Below, one piece after another: positions 7,219-26,486 of a stretch of DNA of 48,231 bases. The stretch lies in the NCBI RefSeq assembly GCF_017982655.1, contig NZ_JABXYX010000039.1:1-48231 (forward strand). Direction: 5' to 3'. Under the pieces are notes generated by a model that had not been told where the DNA came from, searched no databases, and saw only the letters and a list, made by a program, of their open reading frames with translations. Within the stretch, counting starts at the first letter, position 1. Every line of letters begins with the position of its first letter. The position numbers were made by a program, and so were the translations under genes. This stretch comes from Brasilonema sp. CT11 (GTDB lineage: Bacteria; Cyanobacteriota; Cyanobacteriia; Cyanobacteriales; Nostocaceae).

Positions 7219-7249
7219 AAAAATCGTGATTTTTCCATGTTTCTGGGAA

Positions 7250-9073
7250 CTAGAGTTTAGACTAAAAGTCAGAGAGCAGAAGCAAATCAATTCAAATGTA
7301 CTAAAAGACGGCACTTAGGTACAAGTATAAAAAATGTAGTCGAGTCGGCATCTGGTGCAGGCAGTCACCAACGCTCGCTTTTGCAGCAAAAACTAACCTG
7401 ATATAGGCGTTCGCCACCGAAAAAGTTCACATGTACTAAAAAGACCGGATAACGCTTGTTGTTCCTGCTGAGGTTATTCCTGATTCTGTTGGTGAAGGGG
7501 GCGTAGGAGAAAGATTTTTCGTGTTGCCGAGTAGAGCCGCTCTGGGGCTTTAGCCCACTCTTATTTAAACTGACGCACAGAAGTAGTGGTAGAAAATTTC
7601 AAGAAAAGGAGCCTGGATTGAAGACAGACTCCAATAACGGAAGATGAGAGAAGCGCTAACAACTCTCACTACCGTTATGCAACCAATCGCACGACTCAAA
7701 GGGTTACGCCCGTGCTGTGTATGAAAATTTGTGTCGAGCTCATGATGCAACGTTTGAACTAACTGATGCAGTGATGCTGACACGCAAAGCTTATTGCTTA
7801 GCAGATTTGTCGCTGTCTCCAGTATTTCGCCGCAAATGGTCAAGTATTTATGAAGCATTACAAGATACAAGACCTCAACGCCAAAAGTTGATGAAACTGT
7901 ACATTGAACAAATACCATCTCAGGGACGAATCGTGCTAGCAGGAGATCATACAGCTTGGTCGAGACCAGATGCAGTAACGCTTCAAGACCGAACAATTGA
8001 ACACCAGAATACAGAAATTGCTGGAAACAAACCAATTGTGCCAGGAGAAGGTTATAGCACTATTGCTTGGATACCAGAAGACTTTGGTAGTTGGGCATTG
8101 CCACTTCGGCACGAGCGAATCACGAGTTGGGAAAGTCCCATTAGTAAAGCTGTGTGGCAGCTCAAGCAGGTATGTAAATACTTACCTACAAGACCAATTT
8201 CTTTATGGGATAGCGAGTACGGATGTACCCCATTTATCCTCAAAACAGCAGATATTAAAGCCGACAAATTAGTACGTTTGCGCTCCAATCTCTGCTTGTG
8301 GACTTCACCGCCAGAATATTTTGGACGTGGAAGACCCCGCCTTCATGGTAACAAATTTAAGCTTAATGACTCCCAAACTTGGATTGAACCAGTTCAAACA
8401 GCTAACATTAACGACCCGAAATTAGGTTTACTTAGAATTCAACTATGGCACGATTTACACTTTAGAGGAGCTGCTTTGCACCCAATGTCGGTAGTTTTAG
8501 TTGAGCGTCTCAATGAAGATGGTTCGCTACGGGTGATGAAACCTATGTGGTTGGCATGGGTGGGAGATGTGATGCCAAGTTTAGAACAAGTATGTACGCT
8601 CTACTTACGACGTTTTGCTGTTGACCATTGGTATAGATTCCTCAAGCAACGCTTACACTGGACTGTGCCTAAATTTGCTACACCCAAACAATGTGAGCGG
8701 TGGAGCGATCTGATGCCAATGATTACTTGGGAACTTTGGTTAGCTCGTGATATTGTTTTGGATAACCCTCTTCCTTGGCAAAAATCCATTGACAAATTAA
8801 CGCCTGGAAGAGTAGCCCAGTCTATGGGAGGAATTTTAGCGGTGATTGAGACACCAGCCCATCCTCCAAAATCCCGTGGAAAATCTCCTGGGTGGAAAAC
8901 AGGACAGCCACGCCAAGGTAGAATTCGCTATCCTATTGTCAAAAAACGTACTTCTAGACCTCGGAAGCCAACTGCCAAATCTGCTTAGCTTAGCAATTTT
9001 CTCAATTTCTAGTATGAACTATCTTTAACTCAGCATCGCTGGGTTATTTTCCATGTCATAGTCTAAACTCCAG
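7250..9073 (+). mobile_element. Insertion sequence, full-length copy (left boundary of composite unit)
   Basis: The termini are CTAGAGTTTAGACTA at 7250-7264 and, as reverse complement, CTGGAGTTTAGACTA at 9059-9073: a 15-bp inverted repeat with one mismatch. The element is 1824 bp. It has an unusually long 5' leader (7265 to about 7640) with repeats of ATGTACTAAAA (about 7299 and 7433) and a hairpin-rich stretch GGGCTTTAGCCC near 7540. One DDE transposase gene follows. The second copy (25753-26480) shares both ends but lacks nearly all of that gene. Family is uncertain; IS4/IS701-like. Confidence 0.88.
7717..8988 (+). CDS. DDE transposase of the composite-unit IS (possibly frameshifted near its start)
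   Basis: The 423-residue protein has candidate catalytic acids in LAGDHTAW (about residue 74), LWDSEYG (about 166) and the terminal block YLRRFAVDHWYRFLKQ (about 298), which resembles the Y-R-E-K signature of IS4-like transposases with Asp in place of Glu. A basic tail ends KKRTSRPRKPTAKSA. The only usable start in this frame is a GTG at 7717. A sensible N-terminus (MREALTTLTTVMQPIARLKGL) begins at ATG 7644 in another frame and would join this one near 7700-7712. The deleted IS copy carries the same bases there, so this is either an old frameshift, a programmed shift, or a real GTG start. Within the IS it is the only gene. Confidence 0.85.
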   Translation: MYENLCRAHDATFELTDAVMLTRKAYCLADLSLSPVFRRKWSSIYEALQDTRPQRQKLMKLYIEQIPSQGRIVLAGDHTAWSRPDAVTLQDRTIEHQNTEIAGNKPIVPGEGYSTIAWIPEDFGSWALPLRHERITSWESPISKAVWQLKQVCKYLPTRPISLWDSEYGCTPFILKTADIKADKLVRLRSNLCLWTSPPEYFGRGRPRLHGNKFKLNDSQTWIEPVQTANINDPKLGLLRIQLWHDLHFRGAALHPMSVVLVERLNEDGSLRVMKPMWLAWVGDVMPSLEQVCTLYLRRFAVDHWYRFLKQRLHWTVPKFATPKQCERWSDLMPMITWELWLARDIVLDNPLPWQKSIDKLTPGRVAQSMGGILAVIETPAHPPKSRGKSPGWKTGQPRQGRIRYPIVKKRTSRPRKPTAKSA

Positions 9074-9085
9074 TTACTCACTCCT

Positions 9086-9262
9086 ATGGCGATAAGCCGG
9101 AGGCTTGACGCTCCGCGTATCGCATCTATGAAGAAGCCTGAACTAATCAAGCACTTGCAAGATGCTGGACTGTCCACTAATGGAGTCGTCAAAGATTTGA
9201 GAACCCGTCTTACTACCCACATCATGAGTCAGCGTAAAGTGACTGTTAAGACTGCATCGTAA
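9086..9262 (+). CDS. Small SAP-domain-like ORF, possibly a fragment
   Basis: The 58 codons (from ATG 9086; a second ATG lies at 9128) contain ELIKHLQDAGLSTNGVVKDLRTRL, which fits the SAP DNA-binding motif (L-x3-L-x3-G-L-x3-G-x-K-x2-L-x2-R-L). The frame is open back to the IS end at 9073, so the ORF may be the tail of a gene cut by the IS. No Shine-Dalgarno sequence is obvious. It abuts, tail to tail, a transposase fragment on the other strand. Confidence 0.45.
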   Translation: MAISRRLDAPRIASMKKPELIKHLQDAGLSTNGVVKDLRTRLTTHIMSQRKVTVKTAS

Positions 9263-9415
9263 TGGTGGCACGCCATAAGTCGTACCTGCTTCCCACATTA
9301 AGGAACGTAGCAGATTGTAGGCTAACAAATAAACGTAAATTTCTTTACGTACCATGTGAGGAGTTTTACCCCGTAATATCTCCATACCCAAAGTCGTTAC
9401 ATTATAATTAGACAT
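9263..9415 (-). pseudogene. IS4-family transposase, C-terminal fragment
   Basis: On the minus strand the frame encodes TTLGMEILRGKTPHMVRKEI and then YVYLLAYNLLRSLMWEAG. This is the characteristic C-terminal block of IS4-type (DDE_Tnp_1) transposases. Neither the catalytic core nor the terminal repeats are present. It is a remnant of an older element lying just inside the composite unit. The frame runs on past the recognisable part to 9143, without similarity I can name. Confidence 0.7.
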
Positions 9416-9503
9416 TTTTAACAGCCTCCTTGTGTTCCAACCTAGTTTGGCTGGACATAGGAGACTTTTTCTACAGGGATATTATGGTTATTTTTTTTAC
9501 TAG

Positions 9504-9617
9504 TATCTCTGGAAGCGATCGCTCTTATCGAGCGTGCCATTCTGCCAGAGTCATTTAACACAACAGTTTAAGCGCCTTACCGGAATAACGCCAAAGCAAG
9601 TTCGCCCTTCACCTTAA
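9504..9617 (+). pseudogene. AraC-family regulator, C-terminal fragment
   Basis: The frame ending at TAA 9615-9617 reads FCQSHLTQQFKRLTGITPKQ and then VRPSP. That is the second helix-turn-helix and end of AraC/XylS regulators (F-x-S-Q-S-H-F-x-x-x-F-K-R-x-x-G-x-T-P-x-x-x-R). Nothing recognisable precedes it, so the first HTH and sensor domain are lost. The other half of an AraC gene (first HTH, ending abruptly) lies at 24711-25025 in the same composite unit. Confidence 0.7.
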
Positions 9618-9620
9618 GAA

Positions 9621-9682
9621 TCTAATAAAACGCTGTAAGAATCTAATAGAAGTCAAGCTTTAGAACTCAATACATTACTTCT
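9621..9682 (+). promoter_or_regulatory. Shared upstream element, copy 1 (before the sensor kinase)
   Basis: This ~60-bp stretch (core TAAGAATCTAATAGAAG, then TTTAGAACT and ACATTACTTC) closely resembles 21821-21880 and in part 17288-17326. It lies about 145 bp before the sensor kinase start and just after the AraC remnant. The repeated position ahead of three transcription units suggests a common regulatory site, or a sequence that travelled with AraC-linked genes. The stretch 9683-9825 shows no further gene. Confidence 0.5.
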
Positions 9683-9825
9683 GTTACCACAAGATCTCAA
9701 ATCATTACTCTGCAACTGCTTCAGACCTCCTCTTCGGCAAATTTGCGCTCAGAGATTATTTTTTGGAGTTTGGTAAACGATATACTTTGTGATATGGCTG
9801 ACGACACTCATCCCAAGAGAATCCA

Positions 9826-12800
9826 ATGATTGCCTTACCTGGAGTTACCATCCACAGCAAAATCTATGAAAGTTCGGTAACTCTCGTGTATCGGGGCATA
9901 AGAGAACGGGAGAATTGTGCAGTCATCGCTAAAGTTCTGAAGCAGGATTATCTTTCTTCTCAGGAATTAACTCGTTATCGGCAGGAATATGAAATTACCC
10001 GTTCCCTCAACATCGAAGGCGTAGTTAAGGCATACAGCCAGCAGAACTATCAGCGCACGCTCTTCATCCTTCTGGAAAACTTTGGTGGAGAATCTTTAGA
10101 ACACTGGATGCGCCAGCAATCAGACTTCTGCCCCATGGCCTTACCTACTTTTCTGAGACTGGCGATCGCCATTACCGATACTCTGGGCAGAATCCATGCT
10201 GCTCATGTAATTCATAAAGATATCAACCCTGGTAACATTGTCTTTAATCCGAAGACTGGCGTTGTTAAAATCATTGATTTTGGGATTGCCACTCGCTTGG
10301 GCCGCACCAATCCCACGTTCAAAAGTCTCCATCTTCTGGAAGGAACCCCCGCCTATCTGTCGCCAGAGCAAACCGGGCGGATGAACCGGATACTCGACTA
10401 CCGCACTGATTTTTATTCACTGGGCGTAACCTTCTACGAACTGTTGACGGGACAATTGCCGTTTTCCACTATAGATCTCCTGGAGCTAGTCCACTGTCAC
10501 ATTGCCAGACCACCGATTCCCCCGCACCAATTGAACGCGACGATTCCCCAACCCGTTTCAGACCTGATTTTGAAACTGATGGCGAAAAATGCGGAGGATC
10601 GCTATCAAAGTGCCTGGGGCATCAAAGCGGATCTAGAACGCTGCGCTCAACAACTGGCAGAAATGGGTCAGATTAACGCCATGTCGTTGGGACTGCAAGA
10701 TGTTTCAGAACAGTTTTGCATTCCTCAGAAACTGTATGGACGAGAAGCCCAGACTAAAGCATTATTGGCGGCGTTTGACAGAGTGGCTAGAAAAGAGACG
10801 TTTGGCGAAATTTGTCAACTAGAGTCAGGCATAGAAAATGCTCAATTCAATGTCGAACTCATGCTCGTTGCTGGTTACGCTGGCGTTGGCAAAACAGCAT
10901 TGGTGCAAGAACTCTATAAACCCATCACAGCAAAGCACGGCTATTTCATATCGGGTAAATTTGACCAATTCAGGCGCAATATTCCCTACAGCGCCATTGT
11001 GGATGCCCTGCAAAAGTTGGTGCAGCAACTTCTGGGGGAACCGGATGAGCAAGTGCAACAGTGGCGATCGCGCCTGCTTACTGCTTTGGGCAGCAATGGA
11101 CAAATCATCATTGATGTCATCCCCGAAGTTGAGTTAATCATTGGCAAGCAGCCGCCCGTACCAGAAGTTGGAGCAACTGAAGCACAGAATCGCTTCAATC
11201 TCACTTTTCAAAGGTTTATGCGGGCGTTTTGTGCAAAAGAGCATCCCCTGGTCATCTTCTTAGACGATCTACAGTGGCTCGATTCTGCGACGCTGAAGTT
11301 AATCGAACTCATCTTGTTCGACGAGCAAATCCAATATCTGTTTTTGATCGGAGCCTACCGAGACAACGAAGTGACTCCAACGCATTCATTGGTTTTGACG
11401 CTAGAGAAACTACGGAACCAGGGAGCAATGCTTCAGGAAATCATTCTGACTCCCTTAACACTGGAATCGTTGAGTCAACTGTTAGCTGAGACATTACATC
11501 ACAATCCTGAAACGGTTCATTCCCTAGCCCAAACTGTGTCACGTAAAACCGAGGGCAACCCGTTCTTTGTCGGTGAATTTTTGAAAATGCTGTATGGCGA
11601 AAATCTGTTGACCTTTGATGCACAACAGTTGAGCTGGCAATGGAACTTGGCTGAAATTGAAGCTCAAGATATCACTGATAATGTAGTGGAGTTGCTGTTG
11701 CGTCAGTTGCAGAAATTACCGGAAGCAACACGGCAAGTTCTCTCCATCGCCGCTTGTGTTGGGTCTGAGTTTGATTTAGAAACATTGGCGATCGTTTGCG
11801 AAAAATCACCGAAAGCAATTTTTCAGGATTTACTAGCAGCAATACAAGCTGGGTTAATTCAACCCTTGTTTAACTTAGACGAAGACCTGTTAGTTCAAGC
11901 GTATAAGTTTTTGCACGATCGCGTCCAGCAAGCTGCTTATGCTTTGATTGATGAGTCACAGAAACAAGTTGTTCATCTCCAAATCGGTCGCAATTTACTC
12001 GAAAAAACTTTACCAGAGCAACTATCAGATCGGCTGTTTGCGATAGTGGATCATCTCAATCAGGGAATTGAGCTAGTCACTGCTCAACCAGAACGAACTG
12101 AAATTGCCAGATTAAATTTAATGGCAGGACAGAAAGCAAAGGCAGCAACAGCTTATGAAGCAGCTTTTAAGTATCTTACTACAGGACTGAAACTCCTCAA
12201 TCCAGAAAGTTGGCAGACTGAGTATAACCTCACCTTGGCGCTGTATTCAGAAGCAGCAGGAGCGGCATATCTTCACGGTCGCTTTGATGAGATGGAACAA
12301 TTGGTAGAAGCGGTACTTGATTGCGCCAAAACAGTGATTGACAAAGTGCAGGTTTACGATAGCAGAATTCAAGGATATTTGTCACAGGGCAATCTGAAAG
12401 AAGCACTAAAAATTGGATCGGAAGTGTTAAAGCTCCTGGGACTAGATTTAATAGAAAATCCAAGTCAGGTAGATATTCAAAGGGAATTGGAGTCAACGGC
12501 TGCACTACTCGCTGAACGAGAAATCGAAGACTTGATTAATTTACCAGAGATGACTGCACCAGAACCGGTGGCAGCAATGTCAATCCTAGCGAATATAGGG
12601 GCTGCTGCATTTATAATGTCACCAGCACTGGTGATACTGATTACTTGTAAAACGGTAAATTTATCAATCAACTACGGTAATGCTATCTGGTCATCACTGT
12701 ATTATGCTGCCTACGGGTTTGTTCTATGTGGAGTTGTTCAAGACATTGAACTCGGTTATAAGTTCGGCAAATTGGCTCTCAGTTTGGCGGAACGATTGAA

Positions 12801-15800
12801 TACCCAGAAAGGAAATGCTAAAACATTAATGTTTTCAAGTGCCCATATCATGCACTGGAAGGTGCATCTTAGGAACACAATACCAATGCTGGCTGATGCT
12901 TATCAGAATGGAGTGGAAACTGGAGACTTTGAAATAGCTGGTTATGCTGCATATAACGTATGCTATAACTTGTTTTTTGCTGGTGAGGAACTCACCCAAC
13001 TAGAACAAAAAACAGCAGCCTATAGCAAAGCGATCGACCAAATCAGACGGGAAAGCCCCTCGAATTGGCTTGCAATATTGTGGCAGACAATTCTTAATTT
13101 GCTAGATAGGTCTCTTAATCCCAGCCGCTTAGTTGGTAGGCTATGTAATGAAGAGCAGGCGTTACCACACGCTATTGCAGTTAAAGATGGAACTGCAATT
13201 CAAATGCTGTATCTGCACAAAGTTATACTGTGTTATCTATTTGAAGAATATCATCAAGCTGTACAGACTGCTATTTTAGCAAGGCAATATTTTGAAGAGG
13301 TGACAGCAATAACGGTTTTACCTGTATTCTGTTTCTACCATTCTCTGGCGCTTTTGAGCCTATCGCTTGATGCTTCGAGCGCTGAAAAAGCAGCTTGGCT
13401 GAGTTGTGTTAGTACCAACCAAGAAAAGATGCAAAAATGGGCAGAACACGCCCCAATGAATTATCTACATAAATTTCATCTAGTCGAGGCAGAGAAAGCG
13501 CGAGTCTTAGGGCAATTTCTTGAGGCTGAAGAGTTTTATGAACGAGCGATCGCAGGTGCTGCTGAAAATGAGTATATCCAGGAAGAAGCATTAGCTTATG
13601 AATTAGCGGCTAAACATTATCTGGCGCGAGGTCGGTCAAAAATTGCTCAAACTTATATGAAAGAGGCGCACTATTGCTACGATCGCTGGGGCGCAACCGC
13701 TAAAGTTAAAGACTTAGAAAACCGCTATCCACAGTTCTTTCCTCAGTCGTCTAGAGCCGCTTCCACATCAATTCCTATTACTGCTAAAACTATCTCTAAT
13801 CCCTTCCATACCGCTTTCGATTTAGTAGCAGTGATGAAAGCTTCACAGGCGATTTCTCGTGAAATTGAACTGAAGCAATTGCTGCGATCACTGATGCAAA
13901 CTTTAATTGAGAATGCTGGCGCACAAACCGGATATCTGATTTTAGAAAACTCAGGAGAATGGTCGATTGAAGCGGCTTGTGAACTCAATACCGATGAAAA
14001 TGCTTGTGCGGCTCAGGTGTTACAGTCTATTCCAATTGCCGATCAATTGCCAGAATCAATCATTCAATATGTGATTCGGACTCTGAAGTCTGTCACCTTA
14101 AATGATGCGACTCGTGAAGGTGCTTTTATTAATGAGCCATACATTCAACAGAACCAGCCTCAATCTGTTTTCTGTTTGCCGCTGCTGAATCAAGCCAAGC
14201 TGGTCGGTGTATTGTATTTAGAAAATCGGTTAGCAGCTAGAGTATTTACACCAGAGCGATCGCAGGTCTTGCAGCTATTATCGACTCAAGCAGCGATCGC
14301 CATCGAAAATGCCAACCTTTACTCAGAACTGCGGGCTAAGGAAAGCAAGATCACCCAGTTCCTTGAAGCGATTCCGGTGGGAATTGCGATCGTGGATGCG
14401 ACGGGTCGCCCTTACTATACCAACCAATGCGGCAATCAACTCACGGGCAAAGAAACTGATACTTCCATAGCACCGGAGCAGATATCAGAGGCTTATCAGC
14501 TTTATGTAGCGGGAACGGATCAAATCTATCCAGCGGAGAGCTTGCCTATTGTGCGGGCATTAAGGGGCGAACGCATTAGGACTGAAGATATAGAAATTCG
14601 TCGAGATCATGCCTCAATTCTAATTGAGGCACGGGGAACACCAGTTTTTGATCAACAGGGCAATATCACTTATGCGATCGCTACCTTTGAGGACATTACA
14701 GAGCGCAAACAAGCCGAGAAACTCCTAGCCGACTACAACTGCACTTTAGAGCAACAGGTCGCAGAACGAACTGCTGCGTTACAACAAAGTGAAGCCAAGT
14801 TCCGAACTATCTTTGAAAACTCGCAGGTCGGCATCTTCCGAACCCGCCTCTCGGATGGATTACTTCTCGATGCCAATCAACGCCATGCCAATCTGTTTGG
14901 CTTTGATTCACCAGAGGAGAGCATTGGGCTTGAACACGCCACAGACTACTATGTAAATCCCAGCGATCGCCAACAATTCCTTGAGTTGCTGAAGCGGGAT
15001 GGGGAAGTGCGAAACTTTGAAGCACAGATGCGAAAACGAGATGGGACATTGTTTTGGGTACTTTTCTCTTCTTATCTGAATGCAGCCGATGGATACATCG
15101 AAGGTGTGATTGCAGATATTAGCGATCGCAAACAAGCAGAAGTCACTCTACAAATGAGTGAAGAACGACTACGCTTAGCATTAACCGCTGCAAATCAAGG
15201 ACTCTACGATCTAAACATCGAAACTGAAGAAGTTGTGGTTAACCCAGAATACGCTTTAATGCTGGGCTACGATCCCGCAACATATCATGTGACCAAATCT
15301 AAGTGGATTGAGAGTTTGCATCCTGACGACAGAGAACCAGTGGTTGCAGCTTACAATGCTTGTATTACTGGAGAAGTCCCCAGCTATCAAGCAGAGTATC
15401 GCCAGCGTACCCAGAATGGTCAGTGGAAATGGATTCTTGCTGTCGGCAAAATTGTTAGCTGGAATGAATCCGGTGAACCCATCCGAGCGTTGGGAGTTTG
15501 TACGAATATCGACGATTGCAAACAGGCAGAAGCCGCGCTGCAAGCCTCTGAAGCAGAACTGCGGGCGCTCATTTCAGCCATTCCCGATCCATTATTTGTA
15601 TTGACTGCTGAAGGGCGATTCCTTGAAATAATCGTACTGGAACGAAATCTGCTATGGCAACCCTTTGAGGAGATGATTGGTAAAACCATGCATCAACTCG
15701 GAAGGGAACAAGCCGATGAATTTCTAGATTATATTCAGCAGGTACTGAGAACCCAACAAATCCTCACGGTCGAGTACAGTGCGTTTCTAAATGGACGAGA

Positions 15801-17285: not shown

Positions 17286-17287
17286 AT

Positions 17288-17326: not shown

Positions 17327-17380
17327 ATAGCTAGGAAAAAATGACATTGACTGAATTTGAATGAAAAAGGAGACAAACCC

Positions 17381-18067
17381 ATGAGCATGAGCAACACCAT
17401 CGACACAATGATCGATCCCAACGACGCCGTGCTGCTGCTGATTGATCATCAGAGCGGACTCTTCCAACTTGTGCGTGACATCGAACTCTCAGTCCTCCGC
17501 TCCAATGTCACGGCGCTCGCCAAGATTTCCCGACTCGTCAAGATTCCGACCTTCACAACTGCTTCGGTACCCGATGGTCCCAATGGTCCCCTGATTCCCG
17601 AAATCCACCAGCACAATCCTGAGGCGGTTTACATTCCGCGCACAGGACAGATTAACGCCTGGGATAACCCAGCTTGGGTAGATGCTATCGAGAAGACCGG
17701 GCGAAAGACTCTCCTCATCGCCGGAACTCTCACCAGTGTGTGCATGGCGTTTCCGACTCTGAGCGCACTGGCCGCTGGTTACAAGGTCTTCACAATCATT
17801 GACGCTTCCGGCAACTGGAGCCAGATGGCGACCGACCTCACTCTGGCCCGCGTCGTTCAGGCGGGAGCCATGCCCATCGACACTTACGCAGTCATGAGCG
17901 AACTCATGAACACGTGGAACCGTCCAGACGCAATGGAGTTTGCTGCTATTGCAGTTGACCACATCGTGCCGCCTTACCGCGCCCTGATGGAGAGCTATGA
18001 CAAAGCTCAATCCGTGCAACGAGATGGACTAGAGACCAAGCTCGATCGGCAAATGGCACCTGTGTAA
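17381..18067 (+). CDS. ycaC: YcaC-type isochorismatase-family hydrolase
   Basis: This is a cysteine hydrolase of the isochorismatase fold; YcaC relatives are hydrolases of uncertain substrate. The 228-residue protein aligns well with E. coli YcaC ([31 protein letters not shown]). The presumed catalytic trio of D19/R84/C118 in YcaC corresponds to D22, R87 and C121 here. A strong Shine-Dalgarno AAAGGAGA at 17366-17373 fixes the start at ATG 17381 rather than the upstream TTG at 17357. Codons are strikingly GC-ending (CTC, GCC, ATC) and there is no HIP1 site, unlike the neighbours, which suggests recent acquisition, perhaps from a proteobacterium. Direct repeats flank it on both sides. It is probably monocistronic. 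Confidence 0.9.
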
Positions 18068-18380
18068 ACGCACCTAATTACAACGCACACGCACAAAATA
18101 AAAAAAGGGAAGGCGAGGAGTTGGTTATCAGTTCCTCGCCCCGCATTTCCGATAAAAGTGTCCGTAATGCCCCAACAAGCAGGCTAATCGGGTCGAGGCA
18201 GGTGTTTCTCCTGCCCCTCCTAAACCCCACCCATTATGCGGAGCCGCAATGGACGGCTCATGAAGATGTGCAAACAACCTTGATCAACTAAGCGTATCCT
18301 CGAACTTTCATCTAAAGTTTTCAGCTCGATGAAATTTCTGTTCTTCAAGTTATGAGTTAGCCATTCCCATATGCGTTGGA
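18068..18380. other. Hairpin-rich stretch without a gene
   Basis: GGCGAGGA/TCCTCGCC pairs at 18112-18140, with a run of A before it, so it would act as a terminator for minus-strand transcription, though no minus gene is near. Further short stems occur at about 18195-18215 (GGCAGG/CCTGCC) and about 18240-18262 (GAGCCG/CGGCTC). I see no ORF and cannot name the structure. It lies between the ycaC-like gene and the second direct repeat, and may have come in with ycaC. Confidence 0.4.
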
Positions 18381-18736
18381 TGATACAGCGAATGAGCAAT
18401 CCAGAACTGAGTGAACGAGAACTGGCGGTACTCCGTTCACTGGCACACGGGGTGAGTAACGCTGATATTGCGGCTGCTTTGAGCATCGGTGAAGGTACAA
18501 ATCCCATGTCAATCGGATTTTGAATAAGCTAGATGTCAGCGATCGCACTCAAGCTGTGATTGTTGCCTTAAACGCGGCATTGTCTGCTTGTAGAACTTTC
18601 GATCGAATTTGGATTCTAACTTGAGTTAGAGCCTACCTTCTATTTTAAGAAGGAGCGGCTGCTCCATCAAATTACAGCCTAAAAATGTTAACTCACTGTA
18701 GACGACAACTAAAAGCCAATTGCTTATATTGAATTC
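18381..18736 (+). repeat. Direct repeat, copy B (decayed duplicate of 16921-17285)
   Basis: It starts TACAGCGAATGAGCAATCCA and ends near TATATTGAATTC, parallel to copy A through both the coding and the non-coding part. Differences are scattered substitutions, a 4-bp loss near 18493 and single-base losses near 18570, so the coding frame is gone. This is an older duplication, not a fresh one. Confidence 0.88.
18389..18596 (+). pseudogene. Response-regulator HTH remnant
   Basis: The first part still reads MSNPELSERELAVLRSLAHG and then VSNADIAAALSIGEG, the LuxR-type HTH of the regulator at 16515-17138. A small deletion then breaks the frame, and the remainder (LNKLDVSDRTQAVIVA) appears in other frames. 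No receiver domain precedes it. It is the coding part of direct-repeat copy B. Confidence 0.85.
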
Positions 18737-18791
18737 ATGGGGATTGAGCAAGTGAATCGCAAGGTTCCATGCTTGATACAGATGTAGAAAG

Positions 18792-19349
18792 ATGATCGAC
18801 GACCATAGTTCCAGTTCTTTAGTTGTGCCAGCTTCAACCCAAGATCACAGTCAAGGTGTGCTAAGTGCCGCTGTGGTGTTAGTGATGTATGGGGATTATC
18901 AATGTCTTAGAAGTGCAGCCGTTTACAAGCTGATTAAAATCATTCGGCAAGAGCTTACGGTTTCTTTTGGAGAGGATTATTTATGTTTTATCTTCCGCCA
19001 TTTTCCACAGATCCAGATTCATCCCCAGGCGCAACGGGCAGCCCAAGCAGCCGTTGCTGCCGCCGCCCAAGGAAAGTTTTGGTTAATGAGCGATACTTTA
19101 TTTGACCATCAACAAAGGTTGGAGAACGGTTATCTTGTCGAGTACGCCAATGATTTAGGGCTTGACATTCCTCAATTTCTCAAAGAGTTGTCTAAACAAG
19201 TGCATGTTGATCGCATCAATGAAGATATCGAAGGCGGAATACAGAGTGGAGTGACGACTACCCCAGCTCTGTTTATCAATGGAATTCGATATACCAGGCA
19301 CTGGAACACGACGGAGTTGATGGCAGCCATGATTGCTGCAAGTCATTAA
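18792..19349 (+). CDS. DsbA-like thioredoxin-fold protein with CxxS active site
   Basis: The 185 residues match the Thioredoxin_4/DsbA-like family (DYQC at 35-38, FIFRHFP, HPQAQRAAQAAVAAAAQGKF, TTPALFINGIRY with the cis-Pro loop TTP). The usual CPYC motif is here C38-L-R-S41: the second cysteine is Ser, so disulfide exchange would be altered or lost. Relatives with CxxS can act as isomerase-like or glutathione-handling proteins. There is no signal peptide, so it is cytosolic. The start is the ATG at 18792, after copy B of the direct repeat. It may be cotranscribed with nothing else, since 187 bases separate it from the next ORF. Confidence 0.85.
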   Translation: MIDDHSSSSLVVPASTQDHSQGVLSAAVVLVMYGDYQCLRSAAVYKLIKIIRQELTVSFGEDYLCFIFRHFPQIQIHPQAQRAAQAAVAAAAQGKFWLMSDTLFDHQQRLENGYLVEYANDLGLDIPQFLKELSKQVHVDRINEDIEGGIQSGVTTTPALFINGIRYTRHWNTTELMAAMIAASH

Positions 19350-19536
19350 GTTCCCCGATCTTTGCTCCCAATTCATATCTGACTTGTCTGTAAGTGCTGT
19401 AAGCTATCTAATTTCGATGGCTAGATTTTGCCTGTTTCACTGAACAAAATTGCCGCTTTTTGAACCATGCCAACAACTGAATTCCTGCGTATTGATTTAG
19501 TCAATTACAAATCAGTATTTCATTGAGGATAATTCT

Positions 19537-19719
19537 ATGACGCATTTACTAGTACAAGGCAATAATGATTCTGGGCATGAAGGTACACCTCAGACTGATT
19601 CTCTTCGCGACTCCTCAGTTAATCATGCCCTGATTGCGATCGCGCAAGAAGTCACTGAGTTGCTGAGACAAACTTACCTGATACAAACCGATGAAATTAA
19701 AACAGGAGAAACAGAATGA
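19537..19719 (+). CDS. Small hypothetical protein upstream of the SDR gene
   Basis: The 60-residue ORF starts at ATG 19537, with GAGGAT about 10 bases upstream. It ends in ATGA overlap with the SDR start, so it is translationally coupled. The N-terminal half is polar. The C-terminal half (HALIAIAQEVTELLRQTYLI) is an amphipathic helix. I recognise no family. Coupling and an HIP1-containing codon stretch support it as a real leader gene, although it could be a truncated remnant. Confidence 0.55.
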   Translation: MTHLLVQGNNDSGHEGTPQTDSLRDSSVNHALIAIAQEVTELLRQTYLIQTDEIKTGETE

Positions 19720-20462
19720 TACTGCAAGATAAAGTGGCTTTAGTTACTGGTGGCACATCGGGTATTGGCAGAGCAACTGCGATCGCTTATACCAAACAAC
19801 AGGCCAAGGTGGTGGTGGTTGGTCGTCGAATTGATGAAGGTGAAGAAACGGTTCGATTAATTCAGGAAGCTGGCGGAGAGGCTATTTTTGTGAAATCAGA
19901 TGTCACGAAAGAAGCCGATGTTAAAGCAATGGTTGATAAAGTGGTTGACGTTTTTGGTCGGTTGGATATTGCCTTTAATAATGCAGGAACGGCTGGCGAA
20001 AATCCCTCATTGATTGAGCAAACAGAAGCGGAATATGACCACACTATGAACATCAATGTCAAAGGCGTTTGGTTGTCGATGAAATATGAAATTGCTCAGA
20101 TGTTGAAACAGGGAAGTGGTTCAGTCGTCAATATGGCATCTGCGGTTGGAGTCGTTGCACTTCCTAACTTACCCCTCTACGCTGCGAGTAAACATGCAGT
20201 AGTAGGCTTAACAAAAGCTGCTGCACTCCAATATGCCAAAGCGGGTATTCGCATCAATGCCGTTGCACCAGGGTCAATCGAAACAGATATGTTTGAAGCA
20301 GCTCCGGATGAAGTCAAAGCCTACTTGGTAGGACTTCACCCGATCGGACGAGTTGGAACACCGCTTGAAGTTGCAAATGCAGTCCTGTTTTTATCATCTG
20401 ACATGGCATCGTTCGTAACAGGTGAAACGTTGATGGTCGATGGCGGGGCTGTAGCGCAGTAG
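19716..20462 (+). CDS. Short-chain dehydrogenase/reductase (SDR)
   Basis: This 248-residue NAD(P)-dependent oxidoreductase of the classical SDR type has the cofactor motif TGGTSGIGRA (8-17), NNAG (about 89-92) and catalytic S142, Y155 and K159 (YAASK). It ends in a typical GETLMVDGGAVAQ tail. RR at about 37-38 after the second strand suggests a preference for NADP(H). The substrate cannot be told. The start ATG overlaps the stop of the small ORF before it, with AGGAG about 8 bases upstream. A decayed second SDR fragment follows directly. Confidence 0.93.
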   Translation: MILQDKVALVTGGTSGIGRATAIAYTKQQAKVVVVGRRIDEGEETVRLIQEAGGEAIFVKSDVTKEADVKAMVDKVVDVFGRLDIAFNNAGTAGENPSLIEQTEAEYDHTMNINVKGVWLSMKYEIAQMLKQGSGSVVNMASAVGVVALPNLPLYAASKHAVVGLTKAAALQYAKAGIRINAVAPGSIETDMFEAAPDEVKAYLVGLHPIGRVGTPLEVANAVLFLSSDMASFVTGETLMVDGGAVAQ

Positions 20463-20492
20463 GCGATCGGCAGTGCGAAACGTTGCGACCAA

Positions 20493-20678
20493 GTAGCGAT
20501 CGACACCGATATGAATCCCGCAGACAGCGACTTTGCCGCAGAGCAGACCAAGATGACTGCCCTCGATCGCTATGGACAGGGTGACGAGGTAGCTGGCATG
20601 GTTTCTTATCTCGCCAGTTCTGAAGCTGCTTACGAAGCGAGAGCCAAAGTCTGTCAATTTATACTCTACACGCGGTAG
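20493..20678 (+). pseudogene. SDR gene, C-terminal remnant
   Basis: The frame VAIDTDMNPADSDFAAEQTK followed by MTALDRYGQGDEVAGMVSYL and ASSEAAY matches the C-terminal third of another SDR subgroup (I-D-T-D-M-N-P ... LDRYG..DE.AGMV.YL). The terminal TGASLTIDGG part is replaced by unrelated codons. Cofactor and catalytic regions are absent. It differs from the intact upstream SDR, so it is debris of a separate gene rather than a local duplication. Confidence 0.75.
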
Positions 20679-20754
20679 TTAGGGAGAACTTACCTACGCT
20701 GAATGGTATTGAAATCCGTCACTGTTTATTCTAAATCAAGGAGAGTTGGCACAG

Positions 20755-21723
20755 ATGGAATCTATGAAAGCAGCCGTATTAAATGCGTTTGGTGATGCTG
20801 AGAAGTTTGAGATTCAAACGGTTCCCACACCAACACTGAAGGCGAATCAGGTGTTAGTCAGAGTTTGTGCAACCTCGATTAACCCGGTCGATTACCAAAC
20901 TCGTCGTGGTGATTACAAGGAACTGGTTCAATTACCCGCTATCCTTGGAGTCGATGTTTCAGGGGTGATTGAGGCAATTGGCGAAGCTGTGACTGATTTC
21001 AAGGTGGGAGACAACGTATATTACTCGCCGCAAATTTTTGGAGAATTCGGTAGCTACGCTCAGTATCATGTGGCTGATGCAGCGATTGTTGCATTGAAGC
21101 CTGCAAATCTGTCGCACATTGAAGCAGCTTCTTTTCCGCTTGCAGGCGGAACTGCTTGGGATTGTTTAGTGACTAGGGGCAATCTACAAGTGGGTGAAAC
21201 AGTTCTCATCCATGCGAGTGCGGGTGGAGTGGGTTCGATCGCAGTTCAACTCGCCAAAGCGATAGGGGCATACGTTTTTGCGACGTGTAGTTCTAGAAAC
21301 CGAGATTTCGTGACAGAACTGGGCGCAGATCGGGTGATTGATTACAAAAATGAAGATTACGTAGAAGTCATTCGTCAAGAAACAAATGGACTAGGTGTGG
21401 ATTTAGTTCTAGATACGATTGGCGGAGAAACAATTCAGCGTAGTCTAGAAATCATTCGTCCTTTTGGTAGGCTTACAAGCATTGTAGACATTGCAATACC
21501 GCAATCGCTTCTGGAAGCATGGGGTAAGAATTTGACGATTCATTTTGTTTTTTCACCCCAGTACCGAGCAAAATTAGAGGCGTTGACAAAACTAATCGAG
21601 CGTCATCAGCTTCGCCCAGTGATTGATTCAGTATTTTCTTGGGATCAGGTCGTTCTGGCACATCAGCGTCTAGAGCAGGGAGGAACACGGGGCAAAATTG
21701 TGCTGAAGTTTACAGAAAATTAG
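20755..21723 (+). CDS. Zinc-independent MDR-family quinone/enone oxidoreductase
   Basis: This medium-chain dehydrogenase/reductase has 322 residues. A GroES-like N-terminal half (SINPVDYQTRRG, LGVDVSGVIEAIG) is followed by a Rossmann half with HASAGGVGSIAVQLAKAIGA (about 153-172) and C-terminal LEQGGTRGKIVLKF. Catalytic and structural zinc cysteines are absent, as in quinone oxidoreductase (QOR)-like NADPH enzymes. A Shine-Dalgarno AAGGAG at 20738-20743 supports ATG 20755; an upstream TTG at 20746 is less likely. It probably reduces quinones or unsaturated carbonyls. Neighbouring SDR, YcaC-like and cupin genes suggest a detoxification cluster. Confidence 0.92.
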   Translation: MESMKAAVLNAFGDAEKFEIQTVPTPTLKANQVLVRVCATSINPVDYQTRRGDYKELVQLPAILGVDVSGVIEAIGEAVTDFKVGDNVYYSPQIFGEFGSYAQYHVADAAIVALKPANLSHIEAASFPLAGGTAWDCLVTRGNLQVGETVLIHASAGGVGSIAVQLAKAIGAYVFATCSSRNRDFVTELGADRVIDYKNEDYVEVIRQETNGLGVDLVLDTIGGETIQRSLEIIRPFGRLTSIVDIAIPQSLLEAWGKNLTIHFVFSPQYRAKLEALTKLIERHQLRPVIDSVFSWDQVVLAHQRLEQGGTRGKIVLKFTEN

Positions 21724-21820
21724 ACCAGCTTTACGGTGTTGGTAATTGCTAAACAGATTGGAGTTTGATTGTGTGCTGAAGGTCAATTAGCGCTGCGTCC
21801 TGAAGGTGATCGCGCAAGGA

Positions 21821-21880
21821 GCTGATAAAACACCCTAAGAATCTGAAAGAAGTTGAGCATTAGAACCTATTACACTTCAG
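21821..21880 (+). promoter_or_regulatory. Shared upstream element, copy 3 (before SnoaL-like gene)
   Basis: GATAAAACACCCTAAGAATC followed by TGAAAGAAGTTGAGCATTAG and AACC aligns with 9621-9682 over its length. It ends 15 bp before the ATG and directly before the ribosome-binding site, so it covers the expected promoter region. Possible binding site for an AraC-type or NarL-type regulator. Confidence 0.5.
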
Positions 21881-21894
21881 AACAAGGAGTAACC

Positions 21895-22227
21895 ATGAAA
21901 TCTAGCCGGAGCATTGTTATAGAGCGACTGCACCAAGCACTAAACGAACATAACCTGGAAACGCTTTTAGCCTGTTTTGCACCCAACTTTCAGGGCGAGC
22001 AACCTCTCCATCCCGATCGAGCCTTCGAGGGAATTGAGCAAGTCCGTAAAAATTGGTCAATCATCTTCCAGGATGTTCCGGACTTTCACGCCGAGTTACT
22101 CCGTTTAACCGTTGCGGGTGATACTGCCTGGATCGAATGGCACTATTTTGGTACTCGCGGCAATGGCATACAGCTTGATATGCGTGGAGTGACCATTGTA
22201 GGGATAGAAGCAAATCTTACGCTATAG
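21895..22227 (+). pseudogene. SnoaL/NTF2-like small protein, C-terminally truncated
   Basis: From ATG 21895 (AAGGAG at 21884-21889) the 110 residues read as a SnoaL-like ester-cyclase fold: ERLHQALNEHNLETLLACFA, then WSIIFQDVPDFHAELLRLTV and AWIEWHYFGT. The usual ending after GVTIVGIE (strand with I..W.ly.e) is replaced by ANLTL and a stop, so the last beta strand(s) of the cone fold are missing. It may be unstable or non-functional. Strong ribosome-binding site and conserved upstream element suggest it was recently functional. Confidence 0.65.
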
Positions 22228-22317
22228 CGCGTAGATCCTTACACCCCACACCCTTGTGAATGCTTTGCTATTGCGTATTAATACAGCATTAACTGCAATT
22301 TTTAGTGAGTCAGAAAT

Positions 22318-23871
22318 ATGAATAAACGTCAAAGTATAGTACAAAAGTTTTCCACATTTCTTAGCTTTTTAGATGCAAGAAATAGTCTTATACACAAATG
22401 GAGAACAGAACCGCAATTGGAACGTCATATCAAACAACAAGTGCAAACACATCCAGAAAAGACAGCAGAATGGTGGGCACTTTACTTTTTAGATATTTTA
22501 CAAAGTAAATCCCAGGAAGAGGAGAAAAGTGGAGACACCGAAGAACAGAGAAATAACAAACAATGTGTTGATATATTATCCTCAACACATTATCCAGTCA
22601 CTACTCAACATTCCTCTAGCAGCCAGCATTTAAAAGCAGAAAAGTATCTGTCAGCTTACTTACAAGAAGCTTGTTATTGGGCAGCACAAAAAGTACAAAA
22701 GCAATTTCAATCAATTCAGTATAAATATTCATTAGAAGATTTTTTTCAAATCGGTAATTTATTTGTCACTCAACCAGGAAAACTCTTCCGTAGTTTTAAA
22801 TTAGAATATCAACACAGTAACTTGGAAAGCTATGCAAAAACTGCAATTTTTCGCTTCATTGGCAATAAAATTTATACTCAAGATGTAGAAGCGAAGCGAG
22901 AAAAGTTTTCTGATTATGGCTTGTTGAAGGATTTAAATAACAAAGAATTAAAAGAAGCCTTAGCATCAAAAGGAATAAACACTAGCCAACTTGATTCACA
23001 CTGCTTAGCTAGACAATGTTTTAATGTAGTTTATCAACCTCAAAAAAGAGAAAGTAGCCGTAGTTTCAAACCTCCTAGTCAGGAAGATTTAACTCAAATT
23101 GCCTCCTGGTACAATCAGCGACACAATCAGTTAAACTTACCAACTATACTAGCTGACTCTAAGAAAATTCAAGAAATGCTATCAACCTGCATTCAGGCTG
23201 CGCGCGACTATCGTACTAAACGTGTTCTGACTCTAGAAAATGATGACATTATTTCTGACCCCATGCCCACTCCTTGGGATATTGTCACCCAAACAGAAGA
23301 AACAGAGCAAATAGAATTTTTAGTCTCCAAGATATTTATAACCATACCAGAAACTGGTCAAACAATGCTAAAACTTTGGCTGGGATTAAACTTAACTCAA
23401 GCTGAGATAGCAAAAGTTTTAAAGCACAAATATCCAGAATTACAAAAACAGTATCAAGTAGCTCGTCAGTTGGGAAAACATAGTAGAAATTTCTTAAAAG
23501 AATTTTTTCAGCAGTGTCATCAACTAAATCCCGAAATATCTTTGCATGATGACAAAGATATAGAACTAATTCAAGAGTCGTTAGATGAATGTTTACAATC
23601 ATACTGTCAACGTTTATTATACACAGATTTAGAGCAATTAGCTCACCAATACTACAGTGAAGACGAATTTTTCATATTGACTGATTTAATACATAATGAA
23701 CAACCAGAATACGAACAAACAAGTAAGTTCATAGAAAAAAAGCAAGCTTTTATACAAGCTTTGGAAAAGCAACTAGAAAAAAATATGAATTTATCTCCTG
23801 AGTCTTTGAAATTTGTCAACAGGAAAATAGCTCGTATTGTAAGCGAATGGTTACAATCGTTAGTTAACTAA
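22318..23871 (+). CDS. Divergent sigma-70-like / HTH protein (cyanobacterial group)
   Basis: The 517-residue cytosolic protein is rich in Lys, Gln and Asn. A middle block (LEDFFQIGNLFVTQPGKLFRSFKLEYQHSNLESYAKTAIFRFIGNKI, about 138-185) corresponds to the first helices of a cyanobacterial sigma-70-like family often found beside DUF1822 genes. The HTH-like segment WLGLNLTQAEIAKVLKHKYP (about 352-371) matches its sigma region 4. The C-terminal 130 residues are coiled coil. AT-rich codon usage differs from the adjacent redox genes. It has a good start ATG at 22318. The function (alternative sigma or regulator) is inferred. No partner gene follows; the next feature is an IS-end remnant. Confidence 0.6.
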   Translation: MNKRQSIVQKFSTFLSFLDARNSLIHKWRTEPQLERHIKQQVQTHPEKTAEWWALYFLDILQSKSQEEEKSGDTEEQRNNKQCVDILSSTHYPVTTQHSSSSQHLKAEKYLSAYLQEACYWAAQKVQKQFQSIQYKYSLEDFFQIGNLFVTQPGKLFRSFKLEYQHSNLESYAKTAIFRFIGNKIYTQDVEAKREKFSDYGLLKDLNNKELKEALASKGINTSQLDSHCLARQCFNVVYQPQKRESSRSFKPPSQEDLTQIASWYNQRHNQLNLPTILADSKKIQEMLSTCIQAARDYRTKRVLTLENDDIISDPMPTPWDIVTQTEETEQIEFLVSKIFITIPETGQTMLKLWLGLNLTQAEIAKVLKHKYPELQKQYQVARQLGKHSRNFLKEFFQQCHQLNPEISLHDDKDIELIQESLDECLQSYCQRLLYTDLEQLAHQYYSEDEFFILTDLIHNEQPEYEQTSKFIEKKQAFIQALEKQLEKNMNLSPESLKFVNRKIARIVSEWLQSLVN

Positions 23872-23892
23872 ATTAGGGGCTAGCCTTATTAT

Positions 23893-23945
23893 TGGAGTTT
23901 AGACTTAAGGCATGAAAAATGACCCAGCTGAGTGCGGACACGATA
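23893..23945 (+). repeat. Solo IS terminus (same IS as composite boundaries), decayed
   Basis: TTGGAGTTTAGACTTAAGGC then ATGAAAAATGACCCAGC resembles the terminus of IS copy 2 at 25753 (CTGGAGTTTAGACTATGACA followed by TGGAAAATAACCCAGC). Only about 50 bp of one end remain. It marks a former IS insertion inside the composite unit. Confidence 0.7.
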
Positions 23946-23995
23946 TAACTAGGAGTTTGTTCCATTAGCTATAATCCCAATCAGATTCTATAGCG

Positions 23996-24661
23996 ATGTC
24001 TAAAAATCCAAAAATCGGCCTAGAAGGACTGCTTCGTCCAGAAGATAGCATTTTGGTACTGATTGACCACCAGCCTTATCAGTTCACCAACTTGAACAGC
24101 CATGAACCTACGATGATCATTAACAATGTTATTGGTCTTGCCAAATCGGCAAAGGTGTTCAATGTGCCAACAATCCTCACCACAGTAATTGAAGAGAGAG
24201 GGGGTTACATCATCAAGGGACTACAGGATGTTTTTCCTGATCAAAAACCGATCAACCGCACTTTCATCAATACCTGGGAAGATCCAAACGTTACAGATGT
24301 AGTGAAGAAAAGTGGCAGCAAGCAACTTATACTTGCTGCGCTTTACACCGAGATCTGTCTGGCAATGCCAGCAATCCAGGCGCTTGGTGAGGGTTATGAA
24401 GTATTCATCGTTACCGATGCTTCGGGCGGTGTTACTGCGGAAGCTCATGACATGGCTGTTCGCCGTATGGTTCAAGCTGGTGCAGTTCCAATCAATTGGA
24501 TGGCTGTACTTGCTGAATGGCAACGTGACTGGGCACGCACAGAAACAACTGCGGGTGTATCAGATATTGTTCTTGAGCATGGCGGTGCTAGTGCGGTAGC
24601 CCTTGCATGGGAATTTCAGCTCCTTGCAACAACCCCTCCAGTGACCTCAGGTGGACATTAA
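23996..24661 (+). CDS. YcaC-like isochorismatase-family hydrolase (second copy)
   Basis: The 221-residue hydrolase is of the same family as 17381-18067 but only distantly similar. It has LVLIDHQPYQF (D24), NRTFINTWEDP (R88) and LYTEICLAM (C121), the presumed catalytic trio. Its C-terminus WEFQLLATTPPVTSGGH is longer than in YcaC. Codon usage is closer to that of its neighbours. The start is the ATG at 23996; no strong Shine-Dalgarno is seen. It precedes the truncated AraC gene, an arrangement consistent with a hydrolase controlled by an adjacent AraC regulator. Confidence 0.88.
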   Translation: MSKNPKIGLEGLLRPEDSILVLIDHQPYQFTNLNSHEPTMIINNVIGLAKSAKVFNVPTILTTVIEERGGYIIKGLQDVFPDQKPINRTFINTWEDPNVTDVVKKSGSKQLILAALYTEICLAMPAIQALGEGYEVFIVTDASGGVTAEAHDMAVRRMVQAGAVPINWMAVLAEWQRDWARTETTAGVSDIVLEHGGASAVALAWEFQLLATTPPVTSGGH

Positions 24662-24710
24662 TACTTGAGGTTTCCTCTACGGAAGCAACAAGTAAAATAG
24701 GAGACAGCAT

Positions 24711-25025
24711 TTTGAAAAAGATAAAATACTGTCTCCGTCTCAAGCGTTAGTGATTCATCTGTTGCGCCACTATTCTGAGGTCGTACAAATTATCATGCCT
24801 GAGAATAGAAGCTTAACTTACAGCCAATTGCAGCAGGCGATCGATTACATTCATGCTCATCTAAATCGTGATTTATCCTTAGCCGAACTGGCAAGTGTAG
24901 TTAACATCAGCCCGACTTACTTTGCAAGTTTGTTTAAGCGAACGATGGGGATTTCGCCCCATCAGTACGTGATTCAACGGCGCGTGGAACAGGCAAATTT
25001 CTCCTCCAAAATTCATAGATTCTGA
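24711..25025 (+). pseudogene. AraC-family regulator, broken (first HTH only)
   Basis: The frame reads SQALVIHLLRHY, then a linker, then LQQAIDYIHAHLNRDLSLAE and LASVVNISPTYFASLFKRTM with GISPHQYVIQRRVEQA. That is the first helix-turn-helix and linker of an AraC/XylS protein. It breaks into unrelated FSSKIHRF and a stop where the second HTH should begin. The N-terminal sensor domain is also missing (stop codon at 24693-24695). The missing type of sequence (FCQSHLTQQFKRLTG) is found at 9504-9617, near the opposite end of the composite unit. Confidence 0.8.
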
Positions 25026-25060
25026 ACTTGCTCCGATTGTGTAATTGCAAGCCTAAACTT

Positions 25061-25429
25061 ATGCTGATCCAAAAACTAAACGACTGTGAAGAAATTATCG
25101 CTGAAGATGGAACTGTTCTGCGCGAACTGCTTCATCCTGACAAACAAGACATCAACTTGCGTTACAGTTTGGCGTATGCGATCTTGCCTGTTGGCAAAAC
25201 TTCGATTCCCCATTCCCTAAAGACTTCTGAGGTTTATTACATCATTAGCGGTGTTGGAGAAATGTCGATCGACAGTGAAGTTCGTCGCATTGAACCAGGC
25301 GATGCGGTTTACATTCCTCCAAATGCAATCCAGTTCCTTCACAACTACGGCGACGAACCCATTGTTTTCGTTTGTCTAGTCGATCCAGCTTGGCGCAAAG
25401 AAGACGAAACGATTTATGCACCAGTCTGA
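25061..25429 (+). CDS. Cupin-domain protein
   Basis: The 122-residue single-domain cupin has the first motif near IPHSLKTSEVYYIISGVGEM and the second near PGDAVYIPPNAIQFLHN. The usual HxH pair is H-S-L here, but the E and later H are kept, so metal binding is possible with an altered site. No catalytic function can be assigned. The ATG at 25061 is preferred over the upstream TTG at 25028, because homologues of this type start near MLIQKL. It lies between broken AraC and RidA fragments. Expression from its own promoter is unclear. Confidence 0.8.
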   Translation: MLIQKLNDCEEIIAEDGTVLRELLHPDKQDINLRYSLAYAILPVGKTSIPHSLKTSEVYYIISGVGEMSIDSEVRRIEPGDAVYIPPNAIQFLHNYGDEPIVFVCLVDPAWRKEDETIYAPV

Positions 25430-25457
25430 TTCATGCAAATCTCGCTGCTAGGGATGA

Positions 25458-25694
25458 TTGATCACGATCTTAGGAAACCTAGCTATCGTTCTAGATACAG
25501 CAGGAAGCTCGATAGAGAAATTGCTTCACCTTCGCATCTATGTTCGGGGTGAACTAGGAGAATTTATGGCAGCGATCGCACCGATTCTCGCACAATTTCT
25601 GGAAGATTCTCGCCCCGCTATAACTGGTATCGGTGTTGCCTCACTTGCCTCAAAAGAAACATTGGTTGAAATTGAGGCAACCGCATCGCTCTAA
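25458..25694 (+). pseudogene. RidA/YjgF-family protein, N-terminally truncated
   Basis: The frame encodes LGNLAIVLDTAGSSIEKLLH, then LRIYV, DSRPAITGIGVASLASKETL and VEIEATASL. That is the C-terminal two thirds of a RidA-like imine/enamine deaminase (L-x-N-x-x-x-x-L-x-x-A-G-S ... RPA-x-T-x-V ... VEIEAIA). About 45 N-terminal residues, including the strand that frames the active site, are missing, and a TGA lies just before TTG 25458. The catalytic Arg of the family (RPA motif) is present. It is a remnant, probably not translated. Confidence 0.7.
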
Positions 25695-25752
25695 TTCAGT
25701 CGCCCAAAAATATGAATTCACAAACAACTCAAAATCAAACCACCACTACTGC

Positions 25753-26480
25753 CTGGAGTTTAGACTATGACATGGAAAATAACCCAGCGATGCTGAGTTA
25801 AAGATAGTTCATACTAGAAATTGAGAAAATTGCTAAGCTAAGCAGATTTGGCAGTTGGCTTCCGAAATTTTCATACACAGCACGGGCGTAACCCTTTGAG
25901 TCGTGCGATTGGTTGCATAACGGTAGTGAGAGTTGTTAGCGCTTCTCTCATCTTCCGTTATTGGAGTCTGTCTTCAATCCAGGCTCCTTTTCTTGAAATT
26001 TTCTACCACTACTTCTGTGCGTCAGTTTAAATAAGAGTGGGCTAAAGCCCCAGAGCGGCTCTACTCGGCAACACGAAAAATCTTTCTCCTACGCCCCCTT
26101 CACCAACAGAATCAGGAATAACCTCAGCAGGAACAACAAGCGTTATCCGGTCTTTTTAGTACATGTGAACTTTTTCGGTGGCGAACGCCTATATCAGGTT
26201 ATACCGTTTCTTTATGAAGATGCGCCAAATCTTTAGCCTGCCTCTGCAGGCTTTGTTCGTATAGCCCCAGGCTTCAGCCTGTGGGGAAATAGAGCGCAGC
26301 CTCATACAGAATTGGTATTAGTTTTTGCTGCAAAAGCGAGCGTTGATGACTGCCTGCACCAGATGCCGACTCGACTACATTTTTTATACTTGTACCTAAG
26401 TGCCGTCTTTTAGTACATTTGAATTGATTTGCTTTTGAATTGATTTGCTTCTGCTCTCTGACTTTTAGTCTAAACTCCAG
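25753..26480 (-). mobile_element. Internally deleted copy of the composite-unit IS (right boundary)
   Basis: Both 15-bp termini are kept (CTGGAGTTTAGACTA at 25753 and its complement at 26466-26480). Read on the minus strand, it follows copy 1 from its left end to ATGAAAATTT (7730 in copy 1), then jumps to CGGAAGCCAACTGCC (about 8963), losing ~1.23 kb of transposase gene. It also carries a 16-bp tandem duplication near 26420-26450 and a 116-bp MITE (26202-26317). It can be moved only by the transposase of copy 1. Confidence 0.9.
26202..26317. mobile_element. MITE-like insertion inside the deleted IS copy
   Basis: Compared with IS copy 1 (rc around 7396), 116 extra bases interrupt CAGGTTA/GTTTTTGC. 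They begin TACCGTTTCTTTATGA and end TCATACAGAATTGGTA, imperfect inverted repeats, and TTA is directly repeated at both sides (26199-26201 and 26318-26320). The inside has short stems (CCTGCCTCTGCAGG, CCCCAGGCTTCAGCCTGTGGGG). No ORF. Comparison with the empty site in copy 1 makes the insertion clear. Confidence 0.85.
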
Positions 26481-26486
26481 TGGGAA

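Follow-up and report, generated by a model that had tools for sequence, protein, structure and literature searches.

Genes and features at the locus

The window analyzed here is the whole 48,231-nucleotide stretch at positions 1 to 48,231 of contig NZ_JABXYX010000039.1 (assembly GCF_017982655.1) from the filamentous cyanobacterium Brasilonema sp. CT11. Its reverse strand carries tnsB (5439–7169), tnsC (4600–5445; TniB and AAA_22 domains) and tniQ (4097–4603) of a type V-K CRISPR-associated transposon (CAST), and beside tnsB lies a 19,231-bp unit (7250–26480) bounded by two inverted copies of one NF041680-family insertion sequence (IS). Very probably, this unit is a composite transposon (IS, gene cluster, IS) that came probably from a plasmid and was inserted whole into the tnsB-side end of the CAST.

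The left IS copy (7250–9073, forward strand, 1,824 bp) has its left inverted repeat (IRL) outermost and encodes a 423-residue transposase (7717–8988, forward strand) of the NF041680 family (DDE_5; 537 bits against a cut-off of 440), with distant, below cut-off similarity to IS701. The right copy (25753–26480, reverse strand, 728 bp) is inverted, again with its IRL outermost. The two copies are 100% identical over 337 + 113 bp; the outer 163 bp of the right copy differ from the left by two mismatches and one 16-bp gap, and the right copy carries a 16-bp duplication. IS positions 482–1711 are missing from the right copy, and it contains a 116-bp insertion (26202–26317) resembling a miniature inverted-repeat transposable element. 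In the segment 7677–7720, both copies have an extra base relative to L085, L156, L157, and L162 (the four of 16 relatives tried in which the alignment reaches this place), so that the first transposase codons are out of frame compared with these relatives.

Outer junctions and target duplication

The hexamer TGGGAA lies immediately outside both outer IS ends, as an earlier note made from the sequence alone had claimed, with its left copy at 7244–7249 and its right copy at 26481–26486. The left outer IS end begins at 7250 (CTAGAGTTTAGAC...) and the right one stops at 26480 (...GTCTAAACTCCAG). Both outer junctions are formed by an IRL and these derive from two different IS copies (left, CTAGAGTTTAGACTAAAAG; right, CTGGAGTTTAGACTAAAAG), with the right inverted repeat (IRR; CTGGAGTTTAGACTATGAC) pointing inward in the left and right copies alike. 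A single IS insertion therefore does not explain the arrangement, because it would give one IRL and one IRR at the outer junctions.

With equal base use, two given positions would share an identical hexamer by chance in 1 of 4,096 cases. Among 36 rows examined for flanks of NF041680-family IS copies (some of which repeat one place, and three of which are the right copy of the window itself), in 14 the two ends could be paired with no more than one mismatch and were flanked by an exact repeat, of 6 bp in 11 cases and 7 bp in three; two rows with three mismatches were left uncounted and 20 yielded no pair. Judging from these flanks, 6 bp is the typical target-duplication length of the family. 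The TGGGAA duplication is made firmer by this family length and by uninterrupted relatives that align across the joined flanks and hold the site in single copy. The unit thus combines the features of a composite transposon: two IS copies around non-IS genes, a duplication of family length, outer ends that acted jointly, and an empty site. The earlier claim of a 19-kb IS-bounded composite stands with regard to nesting and duplication and is corrected in three small respects, its exact size (given above), the internal deletion of the right IS copy, and the naming of the CAST end (see below).

The split CAST end and its empty site

When the sequences flanking the unit are joined with one TGGGAA, they form a 262-bp CAST end that runs from TGTACA to tnsB. 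In the window, this end is divided into an outer part (26487–26668, reverse strand), which holds four TnsB-like sites and the terminal TGTACA (26663–26668), and an inner part (7170–7249, reverse strand), which holds the fifth site at about 7195–7214. The distance from the terminus to tnsB is consequently about 19.5 kb, instead of about 0.26 kb. The joined flanks thus rebuild the row of TnsB-like sites that had been proposed, split four to one.

We compared tnsB loci in 80 of 134 relatives. A single alignment extended across the join in 28 of the 80 loci, and in 17 of those 28 there was no indel within 26 nt of it. The nearest relative, Brasilonema angustatum (L004), has an uninterrupted end that is 95.4% identical over the 262 bp. 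Under a strict pattern, which required TGTACA and two or more TnsB-like sites, 28 of the 80 loci had an end 261–357 bp upstream of where the tnsB match begins, the span against which the displacement of the terminus by some 19 kb, also a claim of the earlier note, is to be set. The end lay farther off in two loci (L039, at 864 bp with two sites, and L035), and the 50 loci that gave no end are uninformative. Among the loci compared, we saw neither a complete tnsB end at the place corresponding to sequence before 7250 nor a block like 26487–26668 linked to another tnsB, the two arrangements named at the outset as contrary to the nesting.

In L035 (Calothrix sp. NIES-4101), at about 7725–10001, the tnsB match starts at residue 144 and the start of tnsB lies near the CAST end. 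Judged by its sequence, this tnsB seems to have about 1.8 kb of intervening DNA separating its start from residue 144.

PMC9938897 calls the CAST end beside tnsB the right end. If the right end of PMC9527255 is taken as the tnsB side following this naming, the gel shifts with ShTnsB presented in that study are consistent with five right-end sites.

Type V-K identity of the outer element

The best solved relative of the encoded TnsB is the TnsB of 7svw (834 bits), a chain that also occurs beside Cas12k in 8ea3 and 8ea4, and the tnsB of B. angustatum is 95% identical to that of the window. Two cas12k genes are present in the genome of Brasilonema sp. CT11, on contigs C368 and C256. The C256 Cas12k is intact (NF038191, 970 bits against a cut-off of 150) and is accompanied by CRISPR repeats, by a MerR gene next to cas12k in reverse orientation, and by hsdR. 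An HsdM-type methylase gene ends near the end of C256 (it scores above the cut-offs of Pfam HsdM_N and N6_Mtase but below that of NCBIfam hsdM), and the window itself holds an hsdS-type gene. Linked across contig breaks, the C256 cas12k would belong to the same element as the tnsB of the window. With Cas12k on another contig of the same genome and both tRNA-Arg junctions (see below) explained by a CAST-free relative, the assignment of the outer element to the V-K transposons is supported. At gathering thresholds, Rfam gave no match in the window.

On C368 (L113, L188), cas12k is located 27 kb from another tnsB, which is 53% identical to that of the window; the two genes apparently belong to a further V-K CAST of this genome.

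With its contigs linked as proposed, the element resembles the cyanobacterial V-K CASTs AnCAST and ShCAST (PMC9938897, PMC11406308, and PMC9527255) in its tnsB-tnsC-tniQ genes, cas12k, CRISPR repeats, and tRNA target, and also in the reverse MerR gene beside cas12k and a truncated repeat with a 17-nt anchor spacer. It differs from them in that its tnsB-side end is split four to one by 19 kb and its terminus adjoins the relic of an older end.

The tRNA-Arg target site and an older end relic

The other end of the CAST probably lies on contig C245, where a tRNA-Arg(CCG) gene is followed by TTTTA, TGTACA, and four TnsB-like sites, together with a truncated repeat and a tRNA-matching spacer. This anchor spacer matches the tRNA-Arg gene over 14 nt exactly (16 of 17 nt by direct reading), and the distance from a GTG protospacer adjacent motif (PAM) to TGTACA is 61 nt by counting. 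The truncated repeat, the tRNA-matching spacer, and the PAM with its spacing fit V-K CAST targeting as given in PMC9938897 (a GTN PAM, 46–82 nt from the end).

In the window, the CAST terminus is followed by a 5-bp target duplication at 26669–26673 (TAAAA on the forward strand, TTTTA on the reverse), which also stands beside the tRNA-Arg gene on C245. Five base pairs is the usual target-duplication length of V-K CASTs. A CAST-free site exists in G022, a genome of the same genus, in which tRNA-Arg-TTTTA continues directly into the right flank of the window (97.4% identity over 617 bp). Because the terminus is flanked by the TTTTA shared with C245 and with the CAST-free site, the contig order C245-C256-C296 is well supported by the sequences, although it would span breaks in the assembly; the known CAST pieces total 34.5 kb.

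Directly beyond the duplication lies a relic of an older CAST end (26674–26712, forward strand), which is also present in a genome without a CAST at the site. The comparison covered this segment and loci L191, L194, L195, and L196. Among genomes without this CAST there, the relic stands out at the insertion point in G022 and G020 (its score is reached by 2 of 500 simple shuffles) and is weaker in G025 (14 of 500) and G024 (55 of 500), and there was no signal in G023 or in G021, where only 66 nt precede the contig end. The CAST entered precisely at the boundary of TTTTA and the relic, so these nucleotides seem to have served as a target on two occasions. A palindrome at 26644–26698 was considered as two CASTs side by side and this was rejected, given that the CAST-free site of G022 shows the CAST end to adjoin the older relic.

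On the chromosome side of the CAST, the segment 28011–35147 contains a NACHT gene, a WD40-repeat gene, and a TrkA-type gene. It includes ten repeat copies at 126-bp spacing that are 77–90% alike, with one edge copy at 61%.

The cargo cluster

Inside the left IS copy, the unit begins with the 3' part of a plasmid gene that this IS has interrupted (9074–9262, forward strand), which corresponds to an uninterrupted 220-residue open reading frame on the Scytonema sp. NIES-4073 plasmid AP018265 (91% identity over 182 bp). There follow, all on the forward strand, a 2,230-residue protein with Ser/Thr kinase, AAA, GAF, PAS, and histidine kinase domains (9826–16518), a LuxR-type response regulator (16515–17138), and a group of metabolic and regulatory genes (17357–25429). 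The latter encode two isochorismatase-fold hydrolases, DsbA-like, SDR, and Zn-alcohol dehydrogenase proteins, a SnoaL-like protein, a sigma-70-like protein (under the NCBIfam cut-off), an AraC fragment, and a cupin. The domain assignments across 9826–25429 agree with the initial description of a unit carrying a sensor kinase and metabolic genes. At the other side, the right IS has interrupted a further gene, leaving its 5' part (25712–25752, forward strand) next to the IS; G022 has an uninterrupted copy of this gene.

The order of the cluster mostly matches a block on a 7.8-Mb contig of G022 (pieces of 80–98% identity) and plasmid C of Trichormus variabilis ATCC 29413 (pieces of 72–97% identity), in both of which it is mostly present without the IS copies of the window; the stretch 9074–9673 had no match in G022. 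Plasmid records matching 9074–17038 numbered 47, four of them over at least 80% of the stretch, and 176 matched 17039–25000, none over 80% and many by short matches in rhizobia. Because parts of the cluster occur on other plasmids, a plasmid origin is likely on these sequence matches.

IS matches also occur on contig C3 of G022 (G022:C3) and on a B. octagenarum plasmid, and the two agree in length, identity, and score. An IS end of this type (CTTTTAGTCTAAACACCAG; G022:C1:1367560–1367640, L203) also marks the limit of the cluster-bearing block of G022, hinting, from sequence, at repeated involvement of such ISs with the cluster. We also considered, and do not claim, that the cluster departed from an old chromosomal place in the CT11 genome. 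Contig C102 lacks a 27.8-kb block that G022 has at the corresponding place, and in G020 the cluster is on another contig, and about 4.7 kb of other sequence separates the two matches there; given the G020 arrangement, the 27.8-kb block may equally be an insertion in G022.

Origin of the nested arrangement

In the sequence of events that we consider best, two NF041680-family IS copies would have landed inverted around the kinase, regulator, and metabolism cluster, probably on a plasmid, cutting one gene on each side. The IS transposase would then have used both outer IRL ends together, and the whole unit would have entered the tnsB-side end of a CAST that its anchor spacer had presumably positioned at the tRNA-Arg(CCG) gene, duplicating TGGGAA. 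What can be read from the aligned sequences themselves is that the elements are nested, that each has its duplication and its empty site, and that two genes are cut; the transposase that acted was presumably that of the IS. Movement of the unit as one piece, as first proposed, accords with the two IRL outer junctions, the 6-bp duplication, and the uninterrupted CAST ends of relatives.

Several observations weigh against this reading. The left IRL starts with CTAGAG, compared to CTGGAG in the right copy, so that the third base of the left IS end is altered; the right copy has no transposase; and both copies share the one-base shift of frame close to where the transposase begins. B. angustatum has TTAAGA rather than TTCCCA at the insertion site, whereas several other relatives have TTCCCA. 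The stretch 21788–23988, with the SnoaL-like and sigma-70-like genes, is unmatched in the clusters of G022 and T. variabilis plasmid C, making the cluster partly mosaic. The left IS-cargo junction of the window was in no second genome among the matches listed from 217 family genomes (two candidates scored per genome), and movement as a unit accordingly rests on a single insertion. An 89-bp IS piece (93% identity) is present on contig C302 of the same genome, and the assembly is a draft of 411 contigs.

The draft state of the assembly, combined with the inverted identical stretches in the two IS copies, could suggest that contigs were falsely joined via a repeated IS. A false join within the IS may invert or swap what lies inside, but it would not make two IRL-flank junctions that fit together with a 6-bp duplication. 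In addition, a search of the genome for the IS (40 of 49 candidates scored) gave 24 matches, of which only the window copies reach at least 95% identity, and the others longer than 300 bp are 66–76% identical. We regard an artefact as very improbable. Hardly more probable is a stepwise history, in which one IS entered the CAST end first, producing the TGGGAA duplication, and the second IS and the cargo arrived later by recombination or a further IS move. The copies are identical over long enough stretches (337 + 113 bp) for recombination between them to be possible. However, a single insertion leaves IRL and IRR flanks, and here an IRL is found at both sides; integration of an IS-bearing circle by recombination gives direct copies, and those of the window are inverted; and replicative transposition over a short distance would give outer flanks that differ. 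Insertion of the complete IS-bounded composite thus remains by far the favored account.

Relation to known systems and biological meaning

With other members of its family, the IS of the window shares the transposase family, CTGGAG-type ends, and 6-bp duplications. It differs in that its second copy is internally deleted, so that the means of mobility would have to come from the left copy or, in trans, from relatives. Like the IS-bounded composites in Tn7-like transposons with mcr-3, mcr-9.1, and cytochrome P460 (PMC8649781), the unit has ISs of the same family flanking its cargo. Unlike those examples, it sits in a V-K CAST, where it landed amid the TnsB-like sites that separate the terminus from tnsB, and its empty site, its target duplication, and the genes it cut have all been resolved. 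Nested mobile elements, including IS-bounded composites within Tn7-like transposons, are already known; what is new is a well-resolved case in a V-K CAST end. Among the papers searched, we found none treating Cas12k CRISPR-associated transposons together with composite transposons, and none on transposons in Brasilonema genomes. PMC11406308 states that Tn7-like transposons likely acquire cargo with the help of ISs and that undiscovered capture mechanisms are likely.

Judging from the four TnsB-like sites beside its terminus, the enlarged CAST may still be able to move, and it is plausible that the outer transposon could mobilize the whole unit, as the earlier note suggested. More tentatively, and in our view less likely than not, composites landing in the end arrays of V-K elements might constitute a direct route of cargo capture, in which the four outer sites would serve as a working end and a plasmid-type cluster would be carried to tRNA sites. 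The locus resolves one cargo-capture step base by base, with the donor-type cluster, the two cut genes, the composite, the duplication, and the uninterrupted CAST end. Because four of the five TnsB-like sites remain with the terminus and one with tnsB, it also offers a natural experiment on how extensive a V-K end needs to be.

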